A DNA stretch of 64,000 nt from Salinisphaera sp. T31B1. Its GTDB lineage: Bacteria > Pseudomonadota > Gammaproteobacteria > Nevskiales > Salinisphaeraceae. Numbering within the stretch: the first letter of the stretch is position 1; every line of letters starts with the position of its first letter. Location: contig NZ_APNH01000006.1 in assembly GCF_040361275.1 (NCBI RefSeq), positions 1 to 64,000 on the forward strand, written 5' to 3'. The position numbers and the translations under genes are program-made. Below are positions 3,298-64,000 of the stretch, piece by piece. Under the pieces are notes generated by a model. It did no database searches. It had not been told where the DNA came from and saw only the letters and a list, made by a program, of their open reading frames with translations.

Positions 3298-3864
3298 CTA
3301 ACCGGTGGCCGACGCGCGATGCTTGCTTTCGGCGAATTCCTCGACCATCTTGGCGATGAACGCCGGGATATCGTCGGGGCTGCGGCTGGTGACCAGGCCA
3401 TGGTCGACCACCACTTCTTCGTCCACCCAGTTCGCGCCGGCGTTTTTCAGGTCGGTCTGCAGCGTGTGAAACGAGGTCATGCGCTTGCCGGACACCTGCT
3501 GCGCGTCGATCAGCGTCCAGGGCGCATGGCAGATCGCCGCGACCGGCTTGCCGGCTTCAAAGAACGCGCGGACGAACGCCAGCGCGGATTCGTCGCGGCG
3601 CAGGCTGTCCGGATTCATCACGCCGCCGGGCAGCAATAGGGCGTCATAATCGCCCGCATCGGCGCTGTCCAGCGTCACGTCGACGTCAACGCTGTCGCCC
3701 CAATCGGTGAATTTCCAGCCCTTGATGGACCCGTCCTTGGGCGCGACCACCACGGTCTCGGCGCCGGCGTCGATGAGGGCCTGGCGCGGTTCGGTCAGCT
3801 CGACCTGTTCAAAGCCGTCGGTGGCCAGTATCGCGATTTTTCTGCCGTTGAGTTCGTCGGGCAT
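3298..3864 (-). CDS. DJ-1/PfpI family protein (YhbO-like putative deglycase/peptidase)
   Basis: The 188-residue product is a class I glutamine-amidotransferase-like protein of the DJ-1/PfpI group. It begins with GRKIAILATDGFEQVEL, has the GGVMNPD loop and the nucleophile elbow AICHAPW with Cys112 followed by His113. Family members repair glyoxal-damaged protein or act as stress chaperones. Length is normal. The start codon region is nearly identical to the copy at 1-69, showing duplication. It is transcribed with genes for a DsbA-like protein and a peroxiredoxin. Confidence 0.88.
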   Translation of the reverse strand: MPDELNGRKIAILATDGFEQVELTEPRQALIDAGAETVVVAPKDGSIKGWKFTDWGDSVDVDVTLDSADAGDYDALLLPGGVMNPDSLRRDESALAFVRAFFEAGKPVAAICHAPWTLIDAQQVSGKRMTSFHTLQTDLKNAGANWVDEEVVVDHGLVTSRSPDDIPAFIAKMVEEFAESKHRASATG

Positions 3865-48992: not shown

Positions 48993-49602
48993 GCCGCAAC
49001 TCCAGTTCAAATCAAGCGCAATTTATACCATCCCCAAAAGCGAAGCGCTCCAACCCTGCGGGTTGGGTCCGCTCTTGCGTCATAGCGAGCTGGTGGGGAC
49101 TTTACGTCTTCCTTATTGGCTCTTTTATCAATCTATTCGGGCCGACCTAGAACCGCACCAGCAAGTTGACGGGAGGTCAGTATCAACACAATAAGTCGGC
49201 GAGCAAAAGTGGTTACGCAACCGGATTGGCGGTCAGTCTCGATTTGGGGGATGGTATAAACCCGCGAGAGGGTTCGTCCTGAAAGGGGACTGAAGAGCCG
49301 GGTGTGTGGCGTCAGCAAATGCCGGCGATAAGTTGGCAAATCACGCGTTTTACGATCGTATGTTGAGCCCAGATTCCGCTAGTCTGACCGCAATCTCGTT
49401 CGTCTAGAACGATACGCCGCCTGCGTATGTAACAAGGCCTCGATAGCTGATCGAGTAATAAGCAACAGCACGACGAACCCTGTTGGGGTGGTGATGCCGC
49501 CCCAACAGGGGAGCTGCGTCTCCATCCCGACGGTACTTCACCGCGCGGGACGCCGCGATTCCGGTGATTACAACGCCGGGACGCCGGTTACGGAGGTGCG
49601 AA
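48993..49602. promoter_or_regulatory. 610-bp divergent control region with several dyads (possible oriT or Ter region)
   Basis: No gene is seen between the divergent Tus-like gene and a small membrane gene. It holds CTCGAT-AGCTG-ATCGAG (49439-49455), AACCC-GCGAGA-GGGTT near 49248-49263, the 11-bp hairpin at 49478-49510, and GTATGTTG (49359-49366), which equals the core of E. coli TerB. It is a reasonable place for a transfer origin, a Ter-like site or promoters. None is proven. Confidence 0.4.
49478..49510. repeat. Perfect 11-bp inverted repeat
   Basis: CCCTGTTGGGG and CCCCAACAGGG are exact inverted copies around an 11-base loop. No T-run follows, so a terminator is unlikely. An operator or an oriT hairpin is possible. 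Confidence 0.6.
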
Positions 49603-50125: not shown

Positions 50126-50458
50126 TCAGTGCTGGCTCGGCGCATCCTTTAGCTGCTGCATCTTGTATCGCGCAAAGGTCCGCATTGTGTCGCCGAGTCG
50201 ACTAGAGCCGATTGCATCCATGGCATCGGATACACCTGCGACGTATTGGTCGAAGCACACGCGCGCCAGTTCGGCGCTATTTTCCCCCTGTTTACCTGCG
50301 TCATGGCAGATGGCCGCCTTCTCGGAAACCAAACGCTGGCATACGCTGATGACGTCCTCCACGGACGCTCGTACCTCGGGCAAACTATTCCCCATTTTCT
50401 TACCCTTTCTTGAACCGACAATATCGGCGGTTCGTTCAGGCTGACGACCTCGATTCAT
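50126..50458 (-). CDS. Hypothetical protein downstream of lytic transglycosylase
   Basis: The 110-residue product is mainly helical (SVEDVISVCQRLVSEKAAICHDAG, ARVCFDQYVAGVSDAMDAIGSS) with three cysteines; the likely start is GTG/ATG near 50395-50458. It touches the stop of the transglycosylase gene, so they form an operon. Not recognised. Confidence 0.6.
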   Translation of the reverse strand: MNRGRQPERTADIVGSRKGKKMGNSLPEVRASVEDVISVCQRLVSEKAAICHDAGKQGENSAELARVCFDQYVAGVSDAMDAIGSSRLGDTMRTFARYKMQQLKDAPSQH

Positions 50459-51099
50459 TAGAGCGAGGCCACGCGAGCACTGTCGTAGGATGACAATACG
50501 CGAGTCACATACGATTTTGTTTCATCGGGGCAATGTCGATCGATCCAATCCAAAACTTCGCCGCGGGTAAGCATCTGAGGCGGCTTGGCATGCAGCATTC
50601 TCCCGATGCCCCAATTGTACGCGGCTAGTACAAGTGGGATGCGCACCTCACGCGCATAATCGCTGAAATATTGGCGCTCGAGCAGCTGGAGATACGCCGT
50701 TCCTAACCAAACGTTGATGTCCGGGCGCATCAGACTGGCTTGGGTAGGCTGCCCAGCACGGCCATAAAGGTGCGCATAGGCATCGGCCGCGCCGCCGTCA
50801 GGAACGAGTTGCATCAGGCCAATCGCATTCGCACTACTTACAACGTCGGCTCGATAATTACTCTCTCGATAGATCACCGCATCGACGAGAAAGGCATCCA
50901 TGCCCAGTGCCTTCGAAACACGAGCGATCAGCGATCCATAACGTCCTGCTGGGACAGCGGCGCGCTCCTGCACCGCGATGTCGGGAAAAATCGCTCTGAC
51001 CTCGCTTTCAGTTAGACCAGTCAAATCACTGGCGGAAGCGCTGTTGATAGCAGTCAACAGAAACGCCGCGTAGATTCCAGCGCGCATCATCGTGGACAT
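50458..51099 (-). CDS. Lytic transglycosylase (SLT domain), conjugation-associated
   Basis: The 213-residue protein has a signal peptide (about 23 residues) and an SLT lysozyme-like domain: VDAVIYRESNYRADVVSSANAIGLMQLVPDGGA with the catalytic Glu in YRESNY, and PLVLAAYNWGIGRML. It locally opens peptidoglycan for the transfer channel, as VirB1/TraL-type enzymes do. It lies about 1 kb before the TraF/TraH/TraG genes, divergent from them. Confidence 0.88.
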   Translation of the reverse strand: MSTMMRAGIYAAFLLTAINSASASDLTGLTESEVRAIFPDIAVQERAAVPAGRYGSLIARVSKALGMDAFLVDAVIYRESNYRADVVSSANAIGLMQLVPDGGAADAYAHLYGRAGQPTQASLMRPDINVWLGTAYLQLLERQYFSDYAREVRIPLVLAAYNWGIGRMLHAKPPQMLTRGEVLDWIDRHCPDETKSYVTRVLSSYDSARVASL

Positions 51100-51966: not shown

Positions 51967-52049
51967 CCAGGGGTGTGAAAAACGTCAATTTCGAGCGTTT
52001 TACGAGACCAGGGAGCAAAGCCTTGCGATAGACACTAGCCGCACCCCTG
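51967..52049. promoter_or_regulatory. Inverted CAGGGGTG motifs upstream of the transfer operon
   Basis: CCAGGGGTGT at 51967-51976 and CACCCCTG at 52042-52049 are inverted relatives, each followed by an A-run (GAAAAA). The ten-base form also occurs at 59739-59748. They are candidate sites for the FlhDC-like activator encoded at 62476-63230. Confidence 0.4.
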
Positions 52050-52065
52050 AAAAATCTATTCCAAG

Positions 52066-53001
52066 ATGCTGAATCCCGATCGCGAATCTCGCTTCATCAA
52101 CTCGACTACAGTGATGGCCATCCTGGCTCTGGCCGTTCTCAGTGCGTTGCTCCTTTGTGCGGCGTTTACCGCCGGAGCGCTCACGACCCGTCTCTATCAC
52201 CTCGAGTCGCAAGCGAATACGTCGGCACTAGCACCAATCGATGATGAACAGCTCGAGGCTCTGATTAAGAAACTCATCGGCGTTGCGATGGAAGCGGCTG
52301 GTACCGATGACGAAGCGCTGGACCGACGCGTGCGAGAGTCGATTCGCAAGATCGCCCAGTCGAGCGCGGAGAAGCACGGCCAACGACGGATCGTTCCGAG
52401 TGCCGGCAACACGCTGGGCACCCCGGTTTCTCGCGTACGGGCCGTCGATAGCGAACGCGACCATATTCTCGGCGACCCAAATGCACCGGTCAGTCTGATC
52501 GTTTACGACGATTTCGAATGCCCATTCTGTAAGCGGCATCAGGACACGATCAAACGTGTGCCGGATCTCTACGACGGCCGCGTCAATGTGGTGCTGCGCC
52601 ACCTCCCGCTGGCCATGCACAACCCGGTCGCACAGGACGAAGCGTTGCTCAGCAAATGCGTCGCCCGCCAAGGCGGTAACAATGCCTTCTGGCAGTTTGT
52701 CGATTCAGTTTTCGAGCACAGTGGCGGCAACGGTCGCGGCCTATCACGACAGGCAGTGGATACCGCCATCACGCAACTTGATCTCGATCCTCAGGATATT
52801 CGGGATTGCGTCGACGACAATCGTGCCGAGCTGATCGCGGAGGTCGATGCTGACGTGCACGAAGCATCTGTTATCGGTGTTCAAGGCACCCCCGGCAATG
52901 TCGTCATCAACAATAGTAGCGGCCAAGCGCTCCGACTAAACGGTGCTCGGCCACTGGCGCATTTCTCCCCGCTGTTCGAACAGATGCTCGGTGGGGCCTA
53001 A
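52066..53001 (+). CDS. DsbA-like thiol:disulfide protein of the conjugation system
   Basis: The 311-residue protein has an N-terminal membrane helix (residues 15-40), a helical spacer (60-105) and a DsbA-type domain with CPFC (152-155) in LIVYDDFECPFCKRH and the GVQGTPGNVVIN cis-proline loop. It starts the operon with traF, traH and traG, like the redox proteins of F (TrbB) and SXT (DsbC). It should form disulfides in the pilus-assembly proteins. Confidence 0.85.
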   Translation: MLNPDRESRFINSTTVMAILALAVLSALLLCAAFTAGALTTRLYHLESQANTSALAPIDDEQLEALIKKLIGVAMEAAGTDDEALDRRVRESIRKIAQSSAEKHGQRRIVPSAGNTLGTPVSRVRAVDSERDHILGDPNAPVSLIVYDDFECPFCKRHQDTIKRVPDLYDGRVNVVLRHLPLAMHNPVAQDEALLSKCVARQGGNNAFWQFVDSVFEHSGGNGRGLSRQAVDTAITQLDLDPQDIRDCVDDNRAELIAEVDADVHEASVIGVQGTPGNVVINNSSGQALRLNGARPLAHFSPLFEQMLGGA

Positions 53002-53003
53002 AT

Positions 53004-53969
53004 ATGGCTATCCATGCAACTGGGGCATTCGTCGTAGGTTGCACAACGCTGTGCCTCTCCCTGGCAGCGACAGCAGCTGATCTGAACGGGATCGAAAATC
53101 ACGGCTTCTATGGCAAGCACGCCGAAGGCTGGTTTTGGTACGAGCCGGAACCTGAACCGATCGAGCCCGACCCGATCGAAGAACCCGAGGCGGCGGTGGT
53201 CGAGGCCTCGCCGACAGCTCGGCCGGAGCCAGAGCCATCGGGCCCTGAGCCACTGTCCTCGGCCTGGTTGGCGGTCAATCTGCCTAAGTACAGACAAAAG
53301 GCCATTGACGCGCCGACCGAAACGAATATCCGAGCCTACCTTTACCTACAGCGTGTCTCGATGGACAAGGCCGAGCGTTTTGCAACGGCCACGCAGCGGG
53401 TCGTCAACGGTGACGCTCTGCTCGACGAGTACGCTCAATACCCACAAGGAACGGCCTTCATTCAGACAATGCAGCAACAGGCCACGCTGACCCAGGATGA
53501 TTTGCTCCGGGAGATGTCCGGTCAGACGGGGTTGATGTTCTTTTTCGAGTCGAATTGTGGCTACTGCGCCATGCAGGTTTCCGTGCTCAAGACGCTCGAA
53601 CGTCTCTATGGGACGCGGATCGTTCCCGTTTCGACCGACGGGCTGCCATTGCCGGGCAATCCGTTTCCCGATTTCGTGCCCGATCGCGGCGTAGCGAAGC
53701 AGCTCAGGATACGAACGACGCCCGCTCTCGTACTAGCCCATCCTCCGAACGGTATGCAGGTCGTAGCACACGGGCTCATGAGCGTCGAGGAACTCAAGGC
53801 CCGAATGCTGGCAGTCGCGGCACAACGCGGCTGGATCAGCCCGGCCCGCTATCAGCAGACACGTCCTTCTACTAAGCACCGGGGTGATTTTGCTGAGATC
53901 GCAGTCAGCGAAGAGGTCACAGCAAGCCCCGCACGATTGGTCGAGTCAATCGACAATGCCACCCGGTAA
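53004..53969 (+). CDS. traF: TraF, F-type conjugal transfer pilus assembly protein
   Basis: The 321-residue protein has a signal peptide (to about 25), a proline/glutamate-rich section (48-82) and a thioredoxin-like C-terminal domain with CGYC at 185-188 in FFFESNCGYCAMQV. This keeps the cysteine pair, which F TraF lacks. It lies two bases after the DsbA-like gene and ten before traH. It acts in the periplasm in pilus assembly. Confidence 0.9.
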   Translation: MAIHATGAFVVGCTTLCLSLAATAADLNGIENHGFYGKHAEGWFWYEPEPEPIEPDPIEEPEAAVVEASPTARPEPEPSGPEPLSSAWLAVNLPKYRQKAIDAPTETNIRAYLYLQRVSMDKAERFATATQRVVNGDALLDEYAQYPQGTAFIQTMQQQATLTQDDLLREMSGQTGLMFFFESNCGYCAMQVSVLKTLERLYGTRIVPVSTDGLPLPGNPFPDFVPDRGVAKQLRIRTTPALVLAHPPNGMQVVAHGLMSVEELKARMLAVAAQRGWISPARYQQTRPSTKHRGDFAEIAVSEEVTASPARLVESIDNATR

Positions 53970-53978
53970 GCCATCCAT

Positions 53979-55364
53979 ATGTTCGTAAAGCGTCTGGTTT
54001 TTTCTTTGTCCCTCCTGCTCTTATCGTCGGTACCCGCATGGGCCGACCTAAACGATGAGATGGAAGGGATGCTCAACGATATGTCCAACTTCACCGCGCC
54101 GGGCGTGTACGAAACGCAACGGCGCGGCGTCATTTCCGGCGGCTCGTACAGCGGACGCAACAAGATCATGAACGAGAACCTGCTCTCGGTCGTACCCCCA
54201 TCTGTGGGCGCAGGCTGTGGCGGCATCGATCTGTTCGGTGGCTCTTTCTCCTATATAAGCGCCGACCGGCTAGTGAATCTTTTTCGTTCTGTCGCTTCAA
54301 ACGCCAAGAGCTACGCCTTTCAAATCGCACTCAAGGAGATGTGTGAGACCTGTATGGCCACCATCGAATCCCTTCAGAAAAAACTTCAGGCGCTCAATCA
54401 GATGTCGCTGAACTCTTGCGAGGCGGCGCAGGGCATCGTCACCGATTCAGCCAAGGCGATGAAGGGCACGCTTACCAAGGAAAACAGCATGATCGCCCAG
54501 ACCGCCGGCAACTTCGGCGACACCTTCCAGTCAATGTTCGACAGTGACCCGTCCAAGATAGCCCAGGACACGGCACCGGAAGCAACGAGCGAACGCATCA
54601 CCGGCAACTTGGTCTGGCGAGCGCTTAACAAAGGGGCAGTGCAGTCTTGGTTCACCTACGGCGACACAAGCATGCTCGAGGCCATCATGTCGATGACAGG
54701 CACGGTCATCGTTCAGAACAGCGTCGAGTCGGACGATGAGGGCGAATCTAACCCGACGATGACGGCCCCGAGCACGATCGATCTACAGGATCTCATCGAA
54801 GGCGGTCAGGTCACGGTTCTCGATTGCGTGGACTCGGACAACTCGGCTAACGGCTGCCTCGAGGTGCAGACCCGTACCGTGCAGCTCAAAGGACTTGGCA
54901 AACGAATCGAGGAAATGCTGCTTGGCACGAGCACAAACCCGGGAATCATCCACAAGATGACGCATCTCGATTCGTCACCGCTCAACCAGGAGAAGGCATT
55001 CATCATTGCGCTGCCGGGTTCCTACGGCACTTTCCTGCGAAAGCTCGCCTCGGCCAATGAGGCTGCGGCCGTGATGTTCGTCGAAGAGACCTCACGCTAC
55101 ATCGCTCTCGATATGGCACGCGAACTTCTGCTATCGGCGACAAAGGCCGCTCAAACAGCTGCTGCATCAGAAGAACACGCCTACGCCCAGCAAGCCAATG
55201 AACTCATCTACCAGGCTCGGGTAGCGATTCAGCGCGACGCGATGATGTTCGAAGACAAGTACGCAAAGACCGATCTGCTCACCAAGTACCAGGCCTATTT
55301 GTCTGAACAGAGCGTTCGACCATACCTGGCGACCGGCTCTCAGCAGAACGTCTCGATCAATTAA
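53979..55364 (+). CDS. traH: TraH, F-type conjugal transfer pilus assembly protein
   Basis: The 461-residue protein has a signal peptide and the TraH hallmarks: DLNDEMEGMLNDMSNFTAPGVYETQRRGVISGGSYSGRN and VGAGCGGIDLFGGSFSYISADRLVNLFRSVASNAKSYAFQIALKEMCETC. It is a periplasmic part of the F-pilus machinery, working with TraF and TraW-type proteins. Length is normal. Next comes traG after 20 bp. Confidence 0.95.
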   Translation: MFVKRLVFSLSLLLLSSVPAWADLNDEMEGMLNDMSNFTAPGVYETQRRGVISGGSYSGRNKIMNENLLSVVPPSVGAGCGGIDLFGGSFSYISADRLVNLFRSVASNAKSYAFQIALKEMCETCMATIESLQKKLQALNQMSLNSCEAAQGIVTDSAKAMKGTLTKENSMIAQTAGNFGDTFQSMFDSDPSKIAQDTAPEATSERITGNLVWRALNKGAVQSWFTYGDTSMLEAIMSMTGTVIVQNSVESDDEGESNPTMTAPSTIDLQDLIEGGQVTVLDCVDSDNSANGCLEVQTRTVQLKGLGKRIEEMLLGTSTNPGIIHKMTHLDSSPLNQEKAFIIALPGSYGTFLRKLASANEAAAVMFVEETSRYIALDMARELLLSATKAAQTAAASEEHAYAQQANELIYQARVAIQRDAMMFEDKYAKTDLLTKYQAYLSEQSVRPYLATGSQQNVSIN

Positions 55365-55384
55365 TCTCGGAAGGGCCGGCAGTC

Positions 55385-58300
55385 ATGTGGGACATCTATT
55401 CGATCGGTGACGGTGAATTTCTCGCCGGGATACTCAACGCAGTAGCAATGGTCACAGGCACAGGCGACTTCGCCACGCTTGTACGCATTGGCTTCGGGCT
55501 CGGAGTGCTTCTCATCGCACTTCAGGGCGTGCTCTCCGGCGGGCGCGGAGTGCAATGGCAGGAAGCTATGCTCGGGCTCGCGATCTATCTGGTCATGTTC
55601 GGGCCGCAGGTCCGCGTCAATGTCGAGGATATGTACTCGGGTCAGGTCTACCCGGTCGACAACATTCCGTTCGGCGTCGCGGCCGCGGGCAGTGTTCTGT
55701 CACGCGCTGGGTACAGTATTACGCAGCTGTTCGAGACGGGGTTCAGCACGCCAGCGATGACCGAGCAAAGCTACGGCATGAGTCTGAAACGGCTTCAAGC
55801 CGCACGCGAAGCAATGCTGAACCGTATCAATACAGGCGAAGCCAATAGCCCGATACCCGGATCGGATGTTGAGAAGTCCTGGTCTAACTATGTGCGTGAA
55901 TGCACGCTCACCGCCGTCGACCTCCACGACCAGAACCCTAGTGTTGGTATGAGCCTTGATGAAGTGCTGAACCGCCCATTACCAGAAGCACTACATTTCG
56001 CGAACGACGACTTCTATTACACCGAGATCTATATCGGTGGCGCTCCGCAGACACTCAGCTGTGATCGCGCCTTCGTGACGCTCGAAAACTTCACTAATGC
56101 GGTCTTCCTGCCGGCAGCGAAGACAAATATCAAGGCGTACATGGCGCCTGACTCTTTCCTAAGTACAGATCAACTGCTTCAAAACGCGATGGATGGCATC
56201 GAGCAGTTCGGCGTCAATATCGACACGTACCTGAAGGCGGTCTATCTCACCCCGATCTATGGCGACTCCGTAGTGCAGAAGCACCTCGGCTCGAAACAGA
56301 ATGTGATGGCAGCGATCGTCAACGAAGCCGTTCAGCGGCGAAACGCTCAATGGCAGGCACAGAAGAGTGTTTTCGAAACGAGCGTTCAGCCGTTCATGAC
56401 CTTTATGGAAGCCCTGTTCTATGCGCTGACGCCAATCATGGGCCTTGTCATTGGGCTCGGCGTCATGGGTATGAAGATGATCGGCAAGTACCTGGTGCTC
56501 GCGCTGTGGATTCAGATGTGGATGCCGGTCATGGCGATCGTGAACCACTACATGCATGCCGCTACTGCGGGCAAGATCAGTTCGGTATTAGCGGCGGTGG
56601 TCTCGGAACCGATGAGCATTACGGGGATGTCTCAGTTCGACGGCATCATTCAGAATCAGCTGGCTGTCGGCGGCATGCTCGCATCGAGCGTACCGATCAT
56701 CGCGCTGTTTATTGTGAGCGGAAGCTACTACGCACTTACGAACGTAGCCGGCCAGATGACAGGCCAAGATCATGTCGATGAGAACAAAGCCGCCCCGAGC
56801 ACGTCGGCACCGGCTCAATTCGGCGCGATGCAGCAGTGGGACGCAGAACGCGGGCTGCACGGCACAGGTGCTGAGGGCACTATGACGTCGTTCTCATGGT
56901 CAGCGCAGGACGCTGAACATACAGCATCGACTCAGGCCGCCATGCAATCGGCGAATTCGAATTTCAGCTCGATGCTCGGCCAACGTGTTAGCTCGATGTC
57001 AGGCTCGTCCGAGAAAGGTGGACAATCGTTCAGCTTCGGATCGGGCACACGAGTAGGCAATTCACAATCTGAGAGCATGCTCCAATCGAAGGGGCAATCG
57101 CTCGCTGACCGGTGGTCCCATAGCCAGGGGATATCTTCGGATCAGATCGCATCTTTCGGTGCGTCGGCGGCGACAGGGGCCCAATCTACACCGCAGTTGT
57201 CCGCGTCCATCCAGGCTCAAACACGGCTCAATGAGACTGAAGCTGATCAACTCGCAAACGATCTCCAGCAGACGTTTAAAGAAGACGAAAGCTGGAACGC
57301 ATCCTATAACCAACAAGTCGCCAAAGAATTTTCCCAGGGCTCCGAGAATATATATACCCGGGGCACTGGATTGTCGGAAGACAAGCAGCTCCAACAGGCG
57401 GCCCAGGAAAGCTATCAAGCATCTCAGTCATACAATGAGGCCGTATCGAGCGGTGTAACCCGTGGCACACGCCAAGACGTGGACGGCGTGAAAGCGGGCA
57501 AAAACCTTTCTGCGAACAGCGCCGCCAATGCTCGCCTTCAGGACGCGATCACCAACGCCGGCTATAACGGTGCTGTCGATCAGTGGATGGCCTCCACCTC
57601 GGGTGAGGATGCAATCCGACAGATGGGTGGGGACGAACAGGCGGCGCGCTCATATGCAATGTTGCTGACGGCCAACGGTCAGAATCTCTATGCCGATAAG
57701 GACCAGCTGAGCGGGGCCGAACAGGGCATGCTGCAAGATTCCGCGAATTCAGCATTGGCACAAACCTTCGGCCAGGCCGGCGCACCGGCCTTTGGCGATC
57801 GCGCTTCTGCAAATGAATCTGTTGCGGCTGGACAGCTACCTGATCAGGGTGGCGTGCGCGGCCAGGTTGAACAGGCAGTCGGAAGCATGAATGTGCCAGA
57901 CGCCGGGCAGGTGCGCGGTAATGCAGCCGCAGGCCTTACAGCTGCGCAACACGCATCGCGCGGCCCGAGCGACGCAGCCTTGGGCGATGATTATGAAGCT
58001 CGAAACGATCATATTCGAGACGCATCACAGCCTGCGTATGCATCGTTCAAGGGCAAAGACGAGGCAATGACTCGAGGGATGATCGACGAGCAGAACAGTC
58101 GCGGATCCATCGCAGATACCCAGACGCAGGGCGCCCATGCGGGCAAAGATTTTCTCGGCAATGTCGGTGCTATCGGCAGCGCTGCGTGGACATCACTGAT
58201 TGATAGCGATAAGAGCTTCTCTGACGTTCGTTCGGAGCAAATGGCAGCTGAGTATCAATCCCACTATGACTATGCGAAAGGGAAAGATCTAACCGACCAA

Positions 58301-58882
58301 CTGGCTGATGTCTACGCGCGTACCGCGAGCCTTGGCGCTCTTGAAGACCGTGCTGTCGATTGGCTTGGTAACAACGTAAGCCCCGGTATTGCTGAAAGCA
58401 TCGGCTGGCAGCGCGAATACACGGAAGAAACGGAAGCACTCGCCAGCAAACTCGACCCTCAGATTCGAGAAAGTATTCAGAAAGCCGCATACGAGGGCCC
58501 TGGACAGAACGGCAGCCGCCTGGACCGTGTAGCAGATCTCAACAACCCCGACCGCCATTTTCCAGATCGAGCCGGCGTCGAAACGGCCGAAACCCCCAGC
58601 GATCAGGACAGCTCCGGCATTCGCCCATACATCGAGACTGCCGACGTCGGGCCGTTTATGCCAGACCGTCAGCCTTCCAACGTCGATTTGTCCGACAGCC
58701 AGCCTGTCGACGATGGCAAACCCGGCAATGAACTGTCTTCGTTCGAAGGCAAGAACGATCAACGCCAGGCGGCTGCGCGTGCGAAGCAGGACGCTGAGGA
58801 ACGAGCAATCCTCTTGGAACCGATTACGGTGCAGGGCAGCGTGCCGGCAACAGGCGTCGGGCAGAACATGGGGCGATCATAG
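55385..58882 (+). CDS. traG: TraG, F-type mating-pair stabilisation/exclusion-recognition protein
   Basis: The 1165-residue protein has the TraG N-terminal domain (1-480) with hydrophobic helices near 20-75 and 350-470, then a long hydrophilic, Ser/Gln/Ala-rich part (480-1165) expected in the periplasm. TraG works in pilus assembly, mating-pair stabilisation and recognition of recipient exclusion proteins. The C-terminal part is the least conserved region of the family. The gene after it is convergent. Confidence 0.92.
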   Translation: MWDIYSIGDGEFLAGILNAVAMVTGTGDFATLVRIGFGLGVLLIALQGVLSGGRGVQWQEAMLGLAIYLVMFGPQVRVNVEDMYSGQVYPVDNIPFGVAAAGSVLSRAGYSITQLFETGFSTPAMTEQSYGMSLKRLQAAREAMLNRINTGEANSPIPGSDVEKSWSNYVRECTLTAVDLHDQNPSVGMSLDEVLNRPLPEALHFANDDFYYTEIYIGGAPQTLSCDRAFVTLENFTNAVFLPAAKTNIKAYMAPDSFLSTDQLLQNAMDGIEQFGVNIDTYLKAVYLTPIYGDSVVQKHLGSKQNVMAAIVNEAVQRRNAQWQAQKSVFETSVQPFMTFMEALFYALTPIMGLVIGLGVMGMKMIGKYLVLALWIQMWMPVMAIVNHYMHAATAGKISSVLAAVVSEPMSITGMSQFDGIIQNQLAVGGMLASSVPIIALFIVSGSYYALTNVAGQMTGQDHVDENKAAPSTSAPAQFGAMQQWDAERGLHGTGAEGTMTSFSWSAQDAEHTASTQAAMQSANSNFSSMLGQRVSSMSGSSEKGGQSFSFGSGTRVGNSQSESMLQSKGQSLADRWSHSQGISSDQIASFGASAATGAQSTPQLSASIQAQTRLNETEADQLANDLQQTFKEDESWNASYNQQVAKEFSQGSENIYTRGTGLSEDKQLQQAAQESYQASQSYNEAVSSGVTRGTRQDVDGVKAGKNLSANSAANARLQDAITNAGYNGAVDQWMASTSGEDAIRQMGGDEQAARSYAMLLTANGQNLYADKDQLSGAEQGMLQDSANSALAQTFGQAGAPAFGDRASANESVAAGQLPDQGGVRGQVEQAVGSMNVPDAGQVRGNAAAGLTAAQHASRGPSDAALGDDYEARNDHIRDASQPAYASFKGKDEAMTRGMIDEQNSRGSIADTQTQGAHAGKDFLGNVGAIGSAAWTSLIDSDKSFSDVRSEQMAAEYQSHYDYAKGKDLTDQLADVYARTASLGALEDRAVDWLGNNVSPGIAESIGWQREYTEETEALASKLDPQIRESIQKAAYEGPGQNGSRLDRVADLNNPDRHFPDRAGVETAETPSDQDSSGIRPYIETADVGPFMPDRQPSNVDLSDSQPVDDGKPGNELSSFEGKNDQRQAAARAKQDAEERAILLEPITVQGSVPATGVGQNMGRS

Positions 58883-58894
58883 ATCGCCCCATGT

Positions 58895-59500
58895 TCAAAT
58901 CTCACTACGCTTGGCTGGATCTTCAAGCGTAGCGAGAACCGTCGTGAGATTATCGTCGTAAAACTCATACTCGAATGCGCTGCGCTGGCTATCCGACATG
59001 ATCGGATTGAATCGTGCACGAGCCGACCCACCACTCGCGTTGCCGGCGTCTTTCGACATTACCCAGCCGTATGACGACTCTCGAGTGATATCCATGGCAC
59101 GCATAGCAGCAAAGAACGCCAGCACGCCACATACTGGGACGAACAGGCCGGACGGTTCTGTATCGAAAATCAGTGCGGCAAGATAGCTGAGCGGCACCAC
59201 TGCGACAAAGCTGAACACCCAGACGCTGAATTTGTCCGCTCGATCCGCCCGCTTGCCATTTCCAAGACCGCATCGGGCCCGTGAGCCGCGACCCACCTGG
59301 ACCAAAAGGGCGTACCAGCCGGTTACGCCTGCCGCTACTACCGCAGACAGCAGCCCGGCTCTACCCAAAGCAAGTGCCTGCACTGACCCAGACAGGCTAA
59401 GCGCATATCCAACGGCGGTCACAACCAGGCTCAAGCCCAGCCAGAGCAGCTTATATCGCCAGTGCGGCTTTTGAATCGCGCGTCGAAGATCGGCTTTCAT
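58895..59500 (-). CDS. Membrane protein of unknown function, convergent to traG
   Basis: The 201-residue protein has four hydrophobic segments between residues 15 and 125 and a soluble, charged C-terminus (DSQRSAFEYEFYDDNLTTVLATLEDPAK). It begins MKADLRRAIQKPHWRYKLLWLGLSL at ATG 59500. In SXT and IncC elements the entry-exclusion gene lies next to traG, so exclusion is a possible role. There is no sequence similarity that I can recognise. Confidence 0.6.
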   Translation of the reverse strand: MKADLRRAIQKPHWRYKLLWLGLSLVVTAVGYALSLSGSVQALALGRAGLLSAVVAAGVTGWYALLVQVGRGSRARCGLGNGKRADRADKFSVWVFSFVAVVPLSYLAALIFDTEPSGLFVPVCGVLAFFAAMRAMDITRESSYGWVMSKDAGNASGGSARARFNPIMSDSQRSAFEYEFYDDNLTTVLATLEDPAKRSEI

Positions 59501-59802
59501 TATTCTAATTCCTCTGGTCGATAGCTCATTTTCCCATGATTGCGCCAAACCGCCAGAAGTAAGCGAAATTGCCGTTTTCCAGACGCCACGAGGTGTATGT
59601 AGGTGCAAGACTGACAGGAATCATCCTCTTGATTGCCTCGTGCTCAAGAGTTTGCCATCCGCTGCATGCGCGCGGATTCACTCTGTCCTAACGGACCACG
59701 TTAGCTGAACGTGTCATAAGAACAGCATTCAACCGGCCCCAGGGGTGTATCACCCCAAGGGGGTGACTCCGATGGGCTCAACAACCGTCACTGGAGTTCA
59801 CT
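59501..59802. promoter_or_regulatory. Intergenic region with GGGGTG dyads
   Basis: Positions 59739-59770 contain CCAGGGGTGTATCACCCCAA then GGGGGTGA: GGGGTG-TAT-CACCCC and TCACCCC-AA-GGGGGTGA are alternative dyads. The first ten bases are shared with 51967-51976. It lies 35-65 bp before the next gene and may be an activator site. Nothing else is seen. Confidence 0.45.
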
Positions 59803-60066
59803 ATGGCATCGCTCGTCTTTTTCACCGCTTTCTTCATGCTCTACTCGATCAATGAGCTGGGGAAGCTTTCAAGACAGTCTGCTTCCCGGCCCAAATCGTT
59901 CGTATTTAAGAAGGCCGTTCAAGCTATCTCTGACGTTGTGTCGAAGCTCAAGGCGAAGCTCAAGACATCTCAGACAGAGAAACCAGCCGAACCGGAGTAT
60001 CCGGAAGAACTGGTAGCCAATCCGGACTGGAGTGTCTACGACACACCATCCTTCCGCCGGATCTGA
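59803..60066 (+). CDS. Small membrane-anchored, lysine-rich protein
   Basis: The 87-residue protein has one N-terminal hydrophobic helix (ASLVFFTAFFMLYSI) and a basic middle (KKAVQAISDVVSKLKAKLKTSQ). TGGAG precedes ATG 59803 and a strong terminator follows. This is a stand-alone unit with its own control region. Not recognised. Confidence 0.6.
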   Translation: MASLVFFTAFFMLYSINELGKLSRQSASRPKSFVFKKAVQAISDVVSKLKAKLKTSQTEKPAEPEYPEELVANPDWSVYDTPSFRRI

Positions 60067-60075
60067 TCTGGCAAA

Positions 60076-60112
60076 CCCACCCACCGACTTGTCGGTGGGT
60101 GGTCCTTCCTTC
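60076..60112 (+). terminator. Intrinsic terminator
   Basis: CCACCCACCGAC-TT-GTCGGTGGGTGG is a perfect 12-bp stem followed by TCCTTCCTT. It ends the small plus-strand gene and may also serve the convergent minus-strand nuclease gene. Confidence 0.85.
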
Positions 60113-60133
60113 ATTCCCAGCCGTAATTCCCGA

Positions 60134-60841
60134 TTATTTGAGTCGCATGATTGCTTCAACGGCTCTAGTAATTACGGCCTCATCAAGCGTCCGGACATTC
60201 GTGCCGAGCAGGGCAGTTTCGATCTGACGCGTCTGCAAAGGCACGATAGGCACGTGACGAATATGCTCGGCCCGCCAGTGCGTTTTTCGACTGCCGGCGA
60301 CGACGAGCGTATTCACCCACACGCTGATATCTCTGGTGCCCAGGTATTGCCGCAGAGCGCGCGCCTGGCCCGTAACCTGCCGAACCGGATTGCGCATCTG
60401 TGTGTAGTAAACCGTCCCGCGGCGGCCGATCTTCTGAACTGGCCAGGATTGATCCCGCGCCCCGCCGGCGATCACCGTACCGATATTGCTCTTGATCTCG
60501 ATCACAGTCACGCCAGTTGGACCAACAACGATCGCGTCGATCTCTGTCGCGCCTGTACGGGACCATGAATTCGGTACCGCGACCTGATTAAAGAGGGCGT
60601 ACCCGTCTGGCAGAACGCCGCTAATCTTCCTGACTGCCGCGATCTCCCCCCGGTAACCCACCCGCCGAGCGGTCGGTACACTAATCCAGCTCAGCGTCAG
60701 GCCACCGAATACGAATAGTGCCAGGAGTTCGTCTGTACCTAATGCGAGGCATAGGCTGGGCAACACGAACACCAAGAATAGAGTCAGACGCCAACGCTGA
60801 CGAACAAAGTCTCGAGGGTATGAAATCAAAGAGGGAGCCAT
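60134..60841 (-). CDS. NERD-domain membrane-anchored nuclease-like protein
   Basis: The 235-residue protein has two N-terminal hydrophobic segments (17-33, 40-54) followed by a NERD domain: TGATEIDAIVVGPTGVTVIEIKSNIGTVI shows the Asp and Glu-x-Lys of the restriction-endonuclease-like fold. NERD proteins are DNA-processing nucleases. It lies 88 bp downstream of the UvrD-like helicase on the same strand, so the two may act together in DNA processing or defence. Confidence 0.85.
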   Translation of the reverse strand: MAPSLISYPRDFVRQRWRLTLFLVFVLPSLCLALGTDELLALFVFGGLTLSWISVPTARRVGYRGEIAAVRKISGVLPDGYALFNQVAVPNSWSRTGATEIDAIVVGPTGVTVIEIKSNIGTVIAGGARDQSWPVQKIGRRGTVYYTQMRNPVRQVTGQARALRQYLGTRDISVWVNTLVVAGSRKTHWRAEHIRHVPIVPLQTRQIETALLGTNVRTLDEAVITRAVEAIMRLK

Positions 60842-60929
60842 GCCGGTTTCCAGTAATGCGATACAGAACGCATCGCATTGGGCGATAACTCATAATCGCC
60901 CGTGTTCAGGTTTCCGCAACAGCTCGCGT

Positions 60930-62435
60930 CTACTGATTCGTCACATAGCCAGTGCGGCTCATCAGGCCCGCGCGTATGGCAATGTTGGATAGATATTCAC
61001 CCTGAATGTTCAGATTCTCGGTCGCACGCGTGACCGCCACATAAAGAAGATTAAGCTCCTCCTCCCTCGCTCTGACACCAAGGCTGTACTGATTCTCTGC
61101 GTTGAGTGTTTGATCGAAGTCGCCCATTACGACCACGTTTCGCCACTCGGCCCCCTTCGCCTTATGTGCCGTCGTCAGTACAACAGAATTGGCATCCTGT
61201 GCTTCACAGTCGTTGCGTTGCTTGAGCATGCTCAAAAGCTCGGCAAACCGCGGCGCGAAGTCCGTCAGTATTCGAACGATCTGACGAAGCTCTCGAGCGA
61301 AAGGCCCATTTCCTTTCGACGCTGCGATCAGCGATGAATAGGACTTGAACCCCCGAACTAGCGGATCACGCACAAGCCGCCGATCACCGCCCGCTAGAGC
61401 GTCGACAGACTCAAGTTGACGAGCAAGTTCGCTCATATCGCCGTTGAGCAGCACATTAAGGCCGCTGTCGCGGAGAACGAACGAGTCGGCGATGAGCTGA
61501 TAGTTAGTACGATATATGCGCGTGCACGGCGTAGGTGGGGGCCTGTGCACAATACTCGTGTTCAAACGCGGATAGCCTTGCAGGGGATACCTGAGCTTGG
61601 TCTTCTTTTTTTCGCAAAGAATCGCATTAGCGAGATCGGCGATGACAGGGCCGAAGCGAAACGAATGCGTCAGCGGTAGCTCGAGCGCCGTGATTTTCTG
61701 CATCGCATCCACCGCGCCACGGAACGAATAGATCTGCTGATGCGTATCGCCCACGTAAATGACACGGCGCCCAGCCAGTGCAGCTAGAACTACGGCATTC
61801 GAGTCCTGCGCTTCATCGAGCAGAACGACGTCATAACGATCAAGCCCAGGCGTACCGATTACCTGCCAGTATTTCAGATAAAGATCGTGGGGCAGGGGTA
61901 GGCGAGATTTCTCTCCAGGCGCGGCAGCATGGAACAAATCCTGCGCGTGTTCGACAACCTGTTCTATCAAATCATCACAGCCAAGTTCTGTACGCACTCG
62001 TCCCGGTACGCACGCTGCTGTGACAATGGGATCGCCAGATTGCTCGTAGGCAGTGAGCGTTGTCACGATTGCATGAGCATATGCGTAGGCCGATAGACCA
62101 GCTATCTCGCCATCGAGCCCAAGCAGTTCCATGACGTGACGGGGGAAGATACGCCCGAGTTGTCGCTGCCGCGTATCGACTTTGATGTTGAGTTCCGCGT
62201 ACGCGATTCCGTGCGCTGTATACACGTCAGCAGTCGCACCGAATTTCCGCTGCGCCTCCTGCTTGAGCGCACGGTTGTAGGCTAAATAAACGACGCGCTG
62301 CCCAGCTGCGCTCAACGCTTGAGCTACGGCGCAAAGCGTTGAGGTCTTACCGCAGCCCGCGCCGGCCGGCACGAGTAACGACTCGTGACCGGCGACGGCG
62401 TGGTCTACGACTGCAACCTGTTGCTCACAAAGCAC
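60930..62435 (-). CDS. UvrD/Rep-like superfamily 1 helicase
   Basis: The roughly 501-residue helicase has Walker A (VPAGAGCGKTSTL), motif Ia (VVYLAYNRALKQEAQRKF), motif II (DVVLLDEAQDSN), motif III (VIYVGDTHQQIYSFRGAVDAM), motif IV (THSFRFG), motif V (VVLTTAHKAKGAEW) and motif VI (ELNLLYVAVTRATENL). GTG 62435 (LCEQQVAVVDHA) fits family starts; the frame extends to 62516, overlapping the FlhC-like gene. It is smaller than UvrD, like phage or plasmid helicases. Confidence 0.85.
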   Translation of the reverse strand: MLCEQQVAVVDHAVAGHESLLVPAGAGCGKTSTLCAVAQALSAAGQRVVYLAYNRALKQEAQRKFGATADVYTAHGIAYAELNIKVDTRQRQLGRIFPRHVMELLGLDGEIAGLSAYAYAHAIVTTLTAYEQSGDPIVTAACVPGRVRTELGCDDLIEQVVEHAQDLFHAAAPGEKSRLPLPHDLYLKYWQVIGTPGLDRYDVVLLDEAQDSNAVVLAALAGRRVIYVGDTHQQIYSFRGAVDAMQKITALELPLTHSFRFGPVIADLANAILCEKKKTKLRYPLQGYPRLNTSIVHRPPPTPCTRIYRTNYQLIADSFVLRDSGLNVLLNGDMSELARQLESVDALAGGDRRLVRDPLVRGFKSYSSLIAASKGNGPFARELRQIVRILTDFAPRFAELLSMLKQRNDCEAQDANSVVLTTAHKAKGAEWRNVVVMGDFDQTLNAENQYSLGVRAREEELNLLYVAVTRATENLNIQGEYLSNIAIRAGLMSRTGYVTNQ

Positions 62436-62475
62436 GGAAGGAGCCTGTCGGCGGGAACGCTGACGGTGCCAACAA

Positions 62476-62943
62476 TCAGCAATGCGAGCATGCGGGCGCG
62501 TAATGCTGGCGCGCAACTTCCAAATATCTGGCCGTACACTTGGGGCATGTCACAAGGCGCGCTTCGGCCGAACGCAAAGCTCTAGCGAGAACCCAGGTCT
62601 CGTTGAGCGTAATGCAGTGACTCGCAGGCGGATTGTCCTCGAGATAAATTCGATGAGCTGCCATGACAGCCTCGGGGTCAACACCCGACTCGTAGTTCGG
62701 CGCGAGTTCACAGTAGAAGGACATGATGCAGCTCGCGGCCATGAACTCTCGGCGTGTTCGAACGATGCTATCTGCATCACGCATCTGCCCTGAGCGCGGC
62801 GCTACGCCGTGGAGCTCTCGGTAGAGCGCGCGTGCTTTGGGTTTTGTAATACCCGTTTCAAGAACTACGATGCACGGGCGTAAGTTCTGGGTCAGCATTT
62901 TGATGGCTCGATGCTGCACGAGATGATCCATGTGTCGATTCAC
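62476..62943 (-). CDS. FlhC-family transcriptional activator (SetC/AcaC-like)
   Basis: The 155-residue protein resembles FlhC: HRAIKMLTQNLRPCIVVLETGITKPKARALYRELHG, REFMAASCIMSFYCELAP, VMAAHRIYLEDNPP, and NETWVLARALRSAEARLVTCPKC...CSHC. The zinc cysteines are 133, 136, 152 and 155. GTG 62943 overlaps the TGA of the FlhD-like gene. In SXT and IncC elements FlhDC-like pairs switch on transfer genes. The neighbouring TraF/H/G genes make that the likely role. Confidence 0.85.
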   Translation of the reverse strand: MNRHMDHLVQHRAIKMLTQNLRPCIVVLETGITKPKARALYRELHGVAPRSGQMRDADSIVRTRREFMAASCIMSFYCELAPNYESGVDPEAVMAAHRIYLEDNPPASHCITLNETWVLARALRSAEARLVTCPKCTARYLEVARQHYAPACSHC

Positions 62944-63230
62944 GACAACCCCCGTGCCAGCTGACGCAGGCGTGAATCCGGATCCTTCGCATCGTCAAAT
63001 ATTTTCAGGTCAACTTTCTTGACCCGGAACTGCATCAGCGAGGCGCTGGCCAGAACGTTCAAATCGCTAAGCGAGCAATCTTTGATCCGCTCAGCCGTCT
63101 GCTGCGTCACACCGTAGCGCAACGCGGCTTCTGCGACACTTTCCAGCGCGAGTTCGCGCAAGCTGTACCAATACAGCCGATTGATTTCTTGTATGTCACG
63201 TGCTCGCACGCTTACTGATTCAGTCTTCAT
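62940..63230 (-). CDS. FlhD-family transcriptional activator (SetD/AcaD-like)
   Basis: The 96-residue protein fits FlhD: RDIQEINRLYWYSLRELALESVAEAALRYGVTQQTAERIKDCSLSDLNVLASASLMQFRV, matching the FlhD dimer core and the late SxxLVCHFR-type motif. ATG 63230 (MKTESVSVRAR) has GGGACCGGGG upstream; the frame to 63275 is also open. It is co-translated with the FlhC-like partner and should form a heterohexamer that binds transfer promoters. Confidence 0.82.
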   Translation of the reverse strand: MKTESVSVRARDIQEINRLYWYSLRELALESVAEAALRYGVTQQTAERIKDCSLSDLNVLASASLMQFRVKKVDLKIFDDAKDPDSRLRQLARGLS

Positions 63231-63305
63231 CCCCGGTCCCTTTTCCCTTGCATGAATGTACCGCGCCAACTCCACGCGCGGCTTAATCCCTAGCGTTGTC
63301 TCCTA

Positions 63306-63530
63306 TCAGCATCCGGCTAAAAGTCGGCGCTTGATATTGGAGAAGTCGCCCTCGCTTGAGCCATTTGGTTGTACCGCGGCCGGCTCAGGTTCCGCGTCTT
63401 GTAATAGGCTTGCACGCAGTCCGATTTCCGCAAGCAACCGCAAACGCCCAGCGCGATCGCGTGGGGCGTAGCGACCGAGCTCCGCGATGAGTTCGGTATG
63501 ATGTTCAGGCACGCTGACTTTTATCTGCAT
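63306..63530 (-). CDS. Small ribbon-helix-helix/ParR-like protein next to ParM-like ATPase
   Basis: The 74-residue protein starts MQIKVSVPEHHTELIAELGRYAPRDRAGRLRLLAEIGLRASLL, a strand plus two helices as in ribbon-helix-helix DNA-binding proteins. It begins 11 bases after the stop of a ParM-like ATPase. That order (parM then parR/stbB) is usual in type II partition loci. Its binding site (parC) is not identified. Confidence 0.7.
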   Translation of the reverse strand: MQIKVSVPEHHTELIAELGRYAPRDRAGRLRLLAEIGLRASLLQDAEPEPAAVQPNGSSEGDFSNIKRRLLAGC

Positions 63531-63541
63531 CGCTAGAACTG

Positions 63542-64000
63542 TCAGGTGCCCAATGTCCAGAATCCACGAGCATTTGCGTTTACGGGATCGTCAATCTTCT
63601 GTACCCGCGTACCCGGGAACACAGCTCGCGCGGCATCCTCGTAGTAGCCAGCCCCGCCGCCGACAAGCAGCAGAAGGTCAAACCCGCTCATATCACCTCG
63701 AAGCGATTGCCGAAGCTCTCTCAAAGCGCTCGACGTCGTATCGGCAGCGGCATGCGCAATTACAGGGTGAAGCGCAATTTTTTTCCCGCCGATAAAAATA
63801 TTCTCTCGACCCTCTCGAATCGTTTGCTCGATTCGGTGCATGCCATAACGCTGGCCGTACTGTTCGAATAACAGATCGTCCGCGGCGGCGAGGAGCATCG
63901 ACATCGCTTTGACGCTTGAACCGGAAGCGGTATGCCGGATTTCGCCCCCTTGGATTGCCACCCAATCAACCGAATAGAATCCCGGATCGATGATCAGGAT
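63542..64000 (-). CDS. ParM/StbA-like plasmid segregation actin-fold ATPase (C-terminal part, cut by window)
   Basis: About 152 residues are visible and the frame is open to the window edge. They begin ILIIDPGFYSVDWVAIQGG (actin-fold phosphate strand) and hold SGSSVKAMSMLLAAADDLLFEQYG, ENIFIGGKKIALHPVIAHAA and DLLLLVGGGAGYYEDAARAVFPG (adenosine motif), ending ANARGFWTLGT. This is the pattern of ParM/Alp-type segregation filaments. It implies a plasmid or a plasmid-derived element. Confidence 0.82.
   Translation of the reverse strand: MLIIDPGFYSVDWVAIQGGEIRHTASGSSVKAMSMLLAAADDLLFEQYGQRYGMHRIEQTIREGRENIFIGGKKIALHPVIAHAAADTTSSALRELRQSLRGDMSGFDLLLLVGGGAGYYEDAARAVFPGTRVQKIDDPVNANARGFWTLGT

Follow-up and report, generated by a model that had tools for sequence, protein, structure and literature searches.

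Transfer in the SXT/IncC superfamily of mobile elements relies on FlhDC-type switches, and the few elements that have been studied come chiefly from pathogens. In Salinisphaera sp. T31B1 two overlapping genes resembling those of the flagellar master regulators FlhD and FlhC lie within a 64,000-bp stretch of DNA (the window), which raises the question of whether they belong to the flagellar system of the host or to a conjugative element. The window comprises bases 1-64000 of contig C6 (NZ_APNH01000006.1; 180,063 bp) in a 4.36-Mb genome of 9 contigs. An initial annotation had suggested that the pair, set among conjugation and partition genes, may belong to a divergent relative of the superfamily that uses SetCD (SXT/R391) and AcaCD (IncC plasmids).

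The FlhD/FlhC-like pair

62940-63230, minus strand: FlhD-like subunit gene, 96 aa (Pfam FlhD sub-threshold; SetD and Azospirillum FlhD by BLAST)
62476-62943, minus strand: FlhC-like subunit gene, 155 aa, with four zinc cysteines (Pfam FlhC; match to 2avu)

Both open reading frames were found where they had been proposed, at 62476-63230 on the minus strand, with an overlap of 4 bases. The flhC-like frame starts with GTG, and the flhD-like frame yields 96 aa from its ATG, with an alternative GTG start further upstream in frame. In the profile search the FlhC-like protein exceeds the cut-off of Pfam PF05280 (43.3 bits against 27), and its residues 13-155 match E. coli FlhC of 2avu with an E-value of 1.1e-8. 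The proposed FlhD resemblance holds in part: the match to PF05247 (21 bits, E 4e-4, cut-off 27) is sub-threshold on its own, but SetD and Azospirillum FlhD are matched by BLAST. Among Pfam domains, FlhC stands alone in one subunit, and FlhD is accompanied by a weak HTH_28 in the other. The four predicted zinc ligands, Cys133, Cys136, Cys152 and Cys155, are invariant in all 12 aligned FlhC proteins of mobile elements, as are Tyr77, Ala96, Trp117 and Arg124.

Against a small BLAST set of eight references for each subunit, the FlhC-like protein is 34-35% identical to Azospirillum FlhC, 34% to SetC, 29% to E. coli FlhC, 28% to the host's own flagellar FlhC and 24% to AcaC. The FlhD-like protein is 34% identical to Azospirillum FlhD over 82 aa, 25% to SetD over 91 aa and 20% to AcaD; within the same eight references E. 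coli FlhD reaches an E-value of 0.56 only, and the host's own flagellar FlhD gives no match. A tblastn search of the plasmid records with the FlhD-like protein returned nothing at E 0.01. The flhC-like gene was not picked on composition by a simple in-house gene caller and is taken as real on the basis of its conservation and position. AlphaFold models built from single sequences (pLDDT 38 and 63.6) were too poor for use, and a fold search with the FlhD model brought up nothing significant, E. coli FlhD (1g8e) ranking 50th with an E-value of 8.1.

Phylogeny and distribution

The flagellar flhDC genes of the host sit on a different contig (C1), beside motA. In a tree of 46 FlhC rows, from which three short rows (L083, L096 and L093) were omitted, the flagellar clade (support 97/98) holds the host's own FlhC and not the FlhC of the window, and an AU test against placing the latter in this clade gave a marginal p of 0.033. 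The window FlhC groups with two Azospirillum rows at a modest support of 92/83 (not starred), one of which comes from an FlhC-family gene whose neighbors are Tad pilus genes and not transfer genes. AcaC, AqaC and AsaC form a 99/99 clade that excludes it, and it falls in no supported clade with SetC. The tree supports a separation from the flagellar clade without establishing the mobile rows as a single clade.

Of 72,556 plasmid records, 32 gave a tblastn match to the FlhC-like protein at E 0.01. Matches were present in 8 of 85 genomes of the order, all of the host genus and with one match each apart from the host, which has two, and in 26 of 370 genomes of a class sample that includes the host. 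Scans of genome contigs and viral contigs with the same protein gave no relative, and a megablast of 52000-64000 against plasmids returned nothing. Among 32 stretches examined, an FlhC-family gene stands beside transfer genes in four (L071, L072, L076 and L098). Twelve FlhC-like rows (L081, L084-L092) form a clade of their own (100/99); most have an adjoining FlhD match, none has a tra or MotA reference match nearby, and three have ParM-like matches. Several copies occur in one genome (G300), and one 9-kb stretch shared by genomes of two families (L086/L092) is 96.9% identical. On plasmid p2 of Azospirillum argentinense (L022:11983-12558) an FlhC-family gene adjoins Tad pilus genes, with no FlhD annotated alongside. 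A Hydrocarboniclastica plasmid (L103) carries an SXT/IncC-type transfer operon and slt, yet is absent from the 32 FlhC-matched plasmid records, so that it may use another activator or have lost its own.

The element on contig C6

47805-48992, minus strand: Ter (Tus-like) replication terminus protein gene (Pfam PF05472, 42.9 bits)
50458-51099, minus strand: slt lytic transglycosylase gene (MltC and EmtA model matches, below cut-off)
52066-53001, plus strand: DsbA-like gene, first in the traF operon (Pfam Thioredoxin_4/DSBA)
53004-53969, plus strand: traF (TIGR02740, 271.9 bits, over cut-off)
53979-55364, plus strand: traH (NF010279, E 1e-44, below model cut-off)
55385-58882, plus strand: traG (NF010295, E 1.7e-21, below model cut-off)
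60930-62516, minus strand: UvrD-like helicase gene, directly downstream of flhC (Pfam UvrD)
63306-63530, minus strand: 74-aa gene, called parR, in the place of a small partition partner (position only)
63542-64000, minus strand: ParM-like actin gene, 3' part, running on to C6:64618 (PRTRC_D, MreB-like_C)
C6:65276-65764: MobI (PF19456, 93.8 bits)
C6:70121-76822: PRTRC set (ParB, B and ThiF over cut-off)
C6:94255-95637: Rep3 initiator
C6:106036: MOBH relaxase (382 bits, over cut-off)
C6:108338: SXT-type TraD (SXT_TraD, 614 bits, over cut-off)
C6:125924: TraC (620 bits, over cut-off)
C6:132237: TraN (over the cut-off of one model)

The setting proposed for the pair is borne out: traF, traH, traG and a lytic transglycosylase gene are all present in the window, ParM-like and MobI genes lie close by, and once the sequence is extended over C6 the remaining transfer genes, MobI and a Rep3 initiator are found on the same contig. 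The slt gene is displaced from its usual spot adjoining flhD and lies about 11 kb from the pair. The in-window part of the ParM-like protein exceeds the MreB-like_C cut-off in Pfam, and the whole protein scores 144.7 bits against PRTRC_D, below the cut-off of 214.8; the 74-aa protein has no match in Pfam, NCBIfam or PHROGs. On the rest of C6, TraE, TraK, TraL, TraV, TraU, a signal peptidase and a DUF4400 protein pass Pfam cut-offs and TraA passes that of NCBIfam, whereas TraB, TraW and a DsbC match fall below; the set comprises an F-type pilus operon. The TraD of C6 shares 52% identity with its counterparts on R997 and on a Klebsiella grimontii plasmid, and most of the others among the matches listed come to about 49-50%. 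The transfer genes run in the order known from IncC and SXT elements; as in IncC, a giant gene follows traA and an EAL gene precedes traU.

The Rep3 initiator and the PRTRC set argue that the element is a plasmid, and it does not look like an ICE. Pieces of a DJ-1/PfpI-like gene at both ends of C6, with a whole copy at 3298-3864, suggest that the contig is a circle broken at a repeat; when the two end pieces are joined the frame is not open. ParB-like proteins are encoded at C6:70121-71902 and 92219-93142.

Several other features of the contig were seen. The giant gene is an open reading frame of 2,891 aa (C6:116130-124805) between traA and dsbC with a box (see below) of its own, and giant genes occupy the equivalent site in pVCR94, where the product is Ig-like, and in Hydrocarboniclastica. 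The EAL-domain gene (c-di-GMP phosphodiesterase type; C6:130402-131130) lies within the pilus operon, and pVCR94 also has one. A three-gene block occurs twice in opposite orientation (window:39242-41301 and C6:152442-154586; protein identities 74%, 97% and 87%), and a tyrosine recombinase gene (window:44255-45358) lies a few kb ahead of the first box. On Methylomonas pUP202 an FlhDC-like pair and a PRTRC set are found together.

A recurring box at C6 promoters

51979-52001, plus strand: predicted operator box in the gap separating the traF operon from the divergent slt operon (28.3 bits on one strand, 29.2 on the other)
49329-49351, plus strand: predicted box (20.0 bits)
59556-59578, plus strand: predicted box upstream of a small ORF at 59803 (22.0 bits)

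A 23-bp dyad box, about AARNYGNCNAAAATCGNCGYTTTNC, is a candidate operator; it recurs at C6 promoters and was first spotted upstream of transfer operons. The first matrix was seeded from 11 sites picked by eye, and the symmetry of the box is partly built in, since the matrix was refined on matches from both strands. An unbiased EM search of 105 upstream regions of C6 recovered the same motif at widths of 23 and 27, but not at 19; at width 23, the one at which nulls were run, the log-likelihood (LL) was 136.4 against 87.3-105.4 for eight nulls (EM, gene caller and nulls are our own scripts). Scanning C6 with the matrix gave 36 matches above 14 bits against a null mean of 1.6 and maximum of 4, and 34 of them are intergenic on a contig of which 15.5% is intergenic. 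Above 12.5 bits there are 23 distinct box centers between 49340 and 141468, all but one outside called genes, the exception lying at the start of the traV call. Boxes precede mobH, traL, the giant gene, dsbC (three), ssb and the primase and DUF3150 genes, and a further one lies between parM and mobI.

Leave-one-out scores of the sites range from 13.4 to 32.1. With a related matrix two positions in the cargo score above 12, the cargo maximum being 14.1, so that the weakest site is inseparable from background. Nine places in the host genome fit an exact degenerate pattern designed from the C6 sites; all nine lie on C6, and 16 other genomes of the family have none. The idea of a box elsewhere in the genome that would mark a hijacking island was dropped: with one mismatch allowed, 16 of 20 matches lie on C6, and the four elsewhere equal the four of a reversed-pattern control.

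Promoter geometry and predicted feedback

Across 25 promoter directions on C6, a -10-like hexamer peaks at position 52 from the box start with a mean score of +0.66, the next-best offsets reaching -3.0 and -4.1 and the maximum of a phase-jitter null (5000 trials) -1.87, and no -35 signal is seen over the same directions. These were hand-picked toward nearby genes from 22 boxes, three of which were used both ways, with two other directions (mobI_d and g112b) excluded, and the -10 and -35 weights were entered from general knowledge. The per-site list of -10 hexamers takes the best of three offsets, a choice that does not enter the averaged profile. The position upstream, the fixed -10 and the lack of a -35 element point to a class II geometry, as described for AcaCD in the available text of the published work.

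One box, at C6:64724 on the minus strand and with the -10 hexamer TATAGT, reads into parM, the 74-aa gene, flhD, flhC and uvrD, which share one strand. When C6:62399-65399 was scanned with consensus sequences, neither a sigma-70 promoter (1.6 on average in shuffles) nor a terminator on the minus strand was found; the finding of no other promoter or terminator weakly suggests that flhDC may be expressed from this box. The presence of a box before parM-parR-flhD-flhC-uvrD predicts positive feedback. Such feedback is known for BisDC of ICEclc (PMC7423338, available text), and for the SXT regulatory module no SetCD site is reported in the available text of PMC4542580.

Boxes on other plasmids

The AcaCD core is given as GCCCAAAATGGGC, with no obvious -35 and a -10 located 22-24 bp past the site (PMC5058578, available text), and the site as a 13-bp repeat with 5 and 10 flanking bases (PMC4605294, available text). 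These published data would place the AcaCD -10 at about 51-53 in the C6 register. As a positive control, EM was run on pVCR94; it returned the AcaCD core as published (LL 222, nulls up to 104), with 32 of 32 matches intergenic, some of which resemble hairpin leaders rather than AcaCD sites; the best -10 was at 53 (mean -1.16, next -3.24), a modest peak. On the Azospirillum oryzae plasmid, of which bases 1-179303 of 305146 were analysed, a different but similar box was found (LL 386 against 112; 44 of 44 intergenic), and its -10 falls at 54 in the register used for C6 (mean +1.16, next -4.15). The Methylomonas plasmid has a box with another half-site (LL 185 or 181 depending on the seed, against 109; 20 of 24 intergenic) and a modest -10 peak at 52 (mean -1.26, next -2.78); seven matches score above 33 bits, and the remaining ones among the matches listed score below 23. 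On R997 neither a clear box (LL 103, nulls up to 89.5) nor any phasing of the -10 emerged from EM, so that the box geometry is not extended to SetCD.

The C6 matrix itself has 39 matches above 13 bits on the A. oryzae plasmid (36 intergenic), seven on pVCR94 and five on R997, where it scores 21.2 bits inside a gene. The published half-box of E. coli FlhDC, AAYGSSNNAAATAGCG (PMC9962212, available text), resembles the C6 box as judged by eye only.

Comparison with known systems

The available text of PMC4542580 places SetCD, AcaCD, SgaCD, AqaCD and AsaCD all near traG, a lysozyme-like gene, the SrpRM partition genes and mobI. Counterparts of traG, slt, a ParM-type gene and mobI are all found on C6, and related layouts around FlhC-family genes occur on plasmids of A. 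oryzae, Methylomonas, Thiodictyon, Klebsiella, Pseudomonas, Aeromonas and Photobacterium as well as on pVCR94 and R997, the exception being A. argentinense p2 with its Tad pilus neighborhood. A UvrD/3'-5' exonuclease gene follows flhC on C6 and on the PA83 and P. mandelii plasmids, and lies beside traF in pVCR94 and pAQU1; a Tus-like Ter gene near traF is shared by C6, pVCR94 and pAQU1.

By BLAST, SetCD of SXT/R391 (R997, NZ_KY433363) is among the best relatives of known function (SetC 34%, SetD 25%); it shares the short FlhD of about 100 aa, and R997 has an slt-D-C-traG neighborhood. However, C6 is a contig of its own with a Rep3 initiator rather than chromosomally integrated, and the operator match was not recovered on R997. 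Membership in the SXT/R391 ICEs was rejected on the separate contig with Rep3 and the lack of a supported clade with SetC. The IncC plasmids (pVCR94 with AcaCD), taken together with pAQU1 (AqaCD) and pAsa4 (AsaCD), have the transfer operon and operator geometry seen on C6, but AcaC is 24% identical, AcaD has about 200 aa against 96, the half-site is GCCC in IncC and ACGTC-like on C6, and flhDC on C6 is collinear with parM and the 74-aa gene, unlike in IncC. Membership in IncC was rejected because the activator lies outside the AcaC clade (99/99).

The A. oryzae plasmid (NZ_CP054622) has the closest FlhC (34-35%) and FlhD and the most similar boxes. There, in contrast to C6, slt still adjoins flhD, and parM is on the opposite strand and separated by mobile elements; no box precedes slt-flhD among the matches listed. 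Its transfer genes run in the C6 order, except that traA is followed by two large genes and that an EAL gene is absent from those listed. SetC, SetD and slt of the IncT plasmid Rts1 are likened by description only and belong to a different plasmid lineage; deletion analysis of that plasmid shows that transfer depends on the FlhC-domain gene and on its partner (PMC10838148, available text). BisDC of ICEclc is likewise described as an FlhC-resembling activator with a positive feedback loop, BisC carrying DUF2857 and BisD a ParB domain (PMC7423338, available text). Membership of the C6 pair in the BisDC group was dropped, since it matches the FlhC and FlhD models and has neither DUF2857 nor a ParB domain. 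Identity with flagellar FlhDC was rejected on the position outside the flagellar clade and on the neighbors, which are not flagellar.

Proposed model and alternatives

The pair very probably serves as the plasmid's own master activator of conjugation, in the manner of SetCD and AcaCD, and acts via the 23-bp boxes. The relationship put forward by the initial annotation is supported by the tree, the gene context and the 34% identity to SetC, with the role as transfer switch being predicted from these. What the sequence itself shows is the protein pair, the transfer system, the boxes and the box-to--10 spacing; from these we infer box binding by the pair, activation and feedback in the following way. 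The FlhD-like and FlhC-like subunits would form a complex that binds the dyad box just upstream of the -35 position. The complex would then recruit RNA polymerase to target promoters for transfer and maintenance genes that have no -35 element, and the box before parM-parR-flhD-flhC-uvrD would close a positive feedback loop.

The boxes could instead be operators of another plasmid regulator, such as a KorA/KorB/KfrA-like repressor or a partition protein, with the pair acting elsewhere. ParB-like proteins and further regulators are indeed encoded on C6, and dyads at many backbone promoters would suit a global repressor as well. This reading is nevertheless improbable, as a box that precedes the -35 position, keeps a constant spacing to the -10 and comes without a -35 element is activator-like, the geometry matches that published for AcaCD (available text) and recovered on pVCR94, and the plasmid with the closest FlhC (34-35%) has the most similar box set. 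A flagellar regulator, stray or copied by horizontal transfer, that cross-talks with the host flagella and plays no part in conjugation is a highly improbable identity for the pair: the tree excludes it from the flagellar clade that holds the host FlhC, SetC and Azospirillum FlhC outscore the host's flagellar FlhC, and the neighborhood is that of transfer activators, even if the protein family is the same, with 28% identity to the host's flagellar FlhC. That the pair has decayed into a functionless remnant, as could be suspected from the FlhD score below the Pfam cut-off and the failure of the gene caller to select flhC, is harder still to reconcile with two open frames that overlap stop to start, with the retention of the four cysteines and other invariant residues, and with a coherent box set kept at backbone promoters.

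Meaning and novelty

Activators of the SetCD/AcaCD kind are already known; what is likely new is the divergent pair, its predicted regulon, and a common spacing combined with diverged half-sites. Among the papers listed in open-access searches for FlhDC-type transfer activators, none deals with the C6 plasmid or describes operator spacing as a rule that holds for several lineages. Tentatively, FlhDC-type activators on plasmids of Alpha- and Gammaproteobacteria might share an operator architecture, in which the dyad center precedes the start of the -10 by 40-42 bp and no -35 is present, and the half-sites might have diverged to give each plasmid a private regulon; with an activator that has its own box, as predicted here, all-or-none transfer per cell would be possible. 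A divergent member with a readable regulon, together with the spacing on four plasmids, would allow operators to be predicted for uncharacterised relatives, and how FlhDC-type activators shift their DNA specificity would become directly testable.
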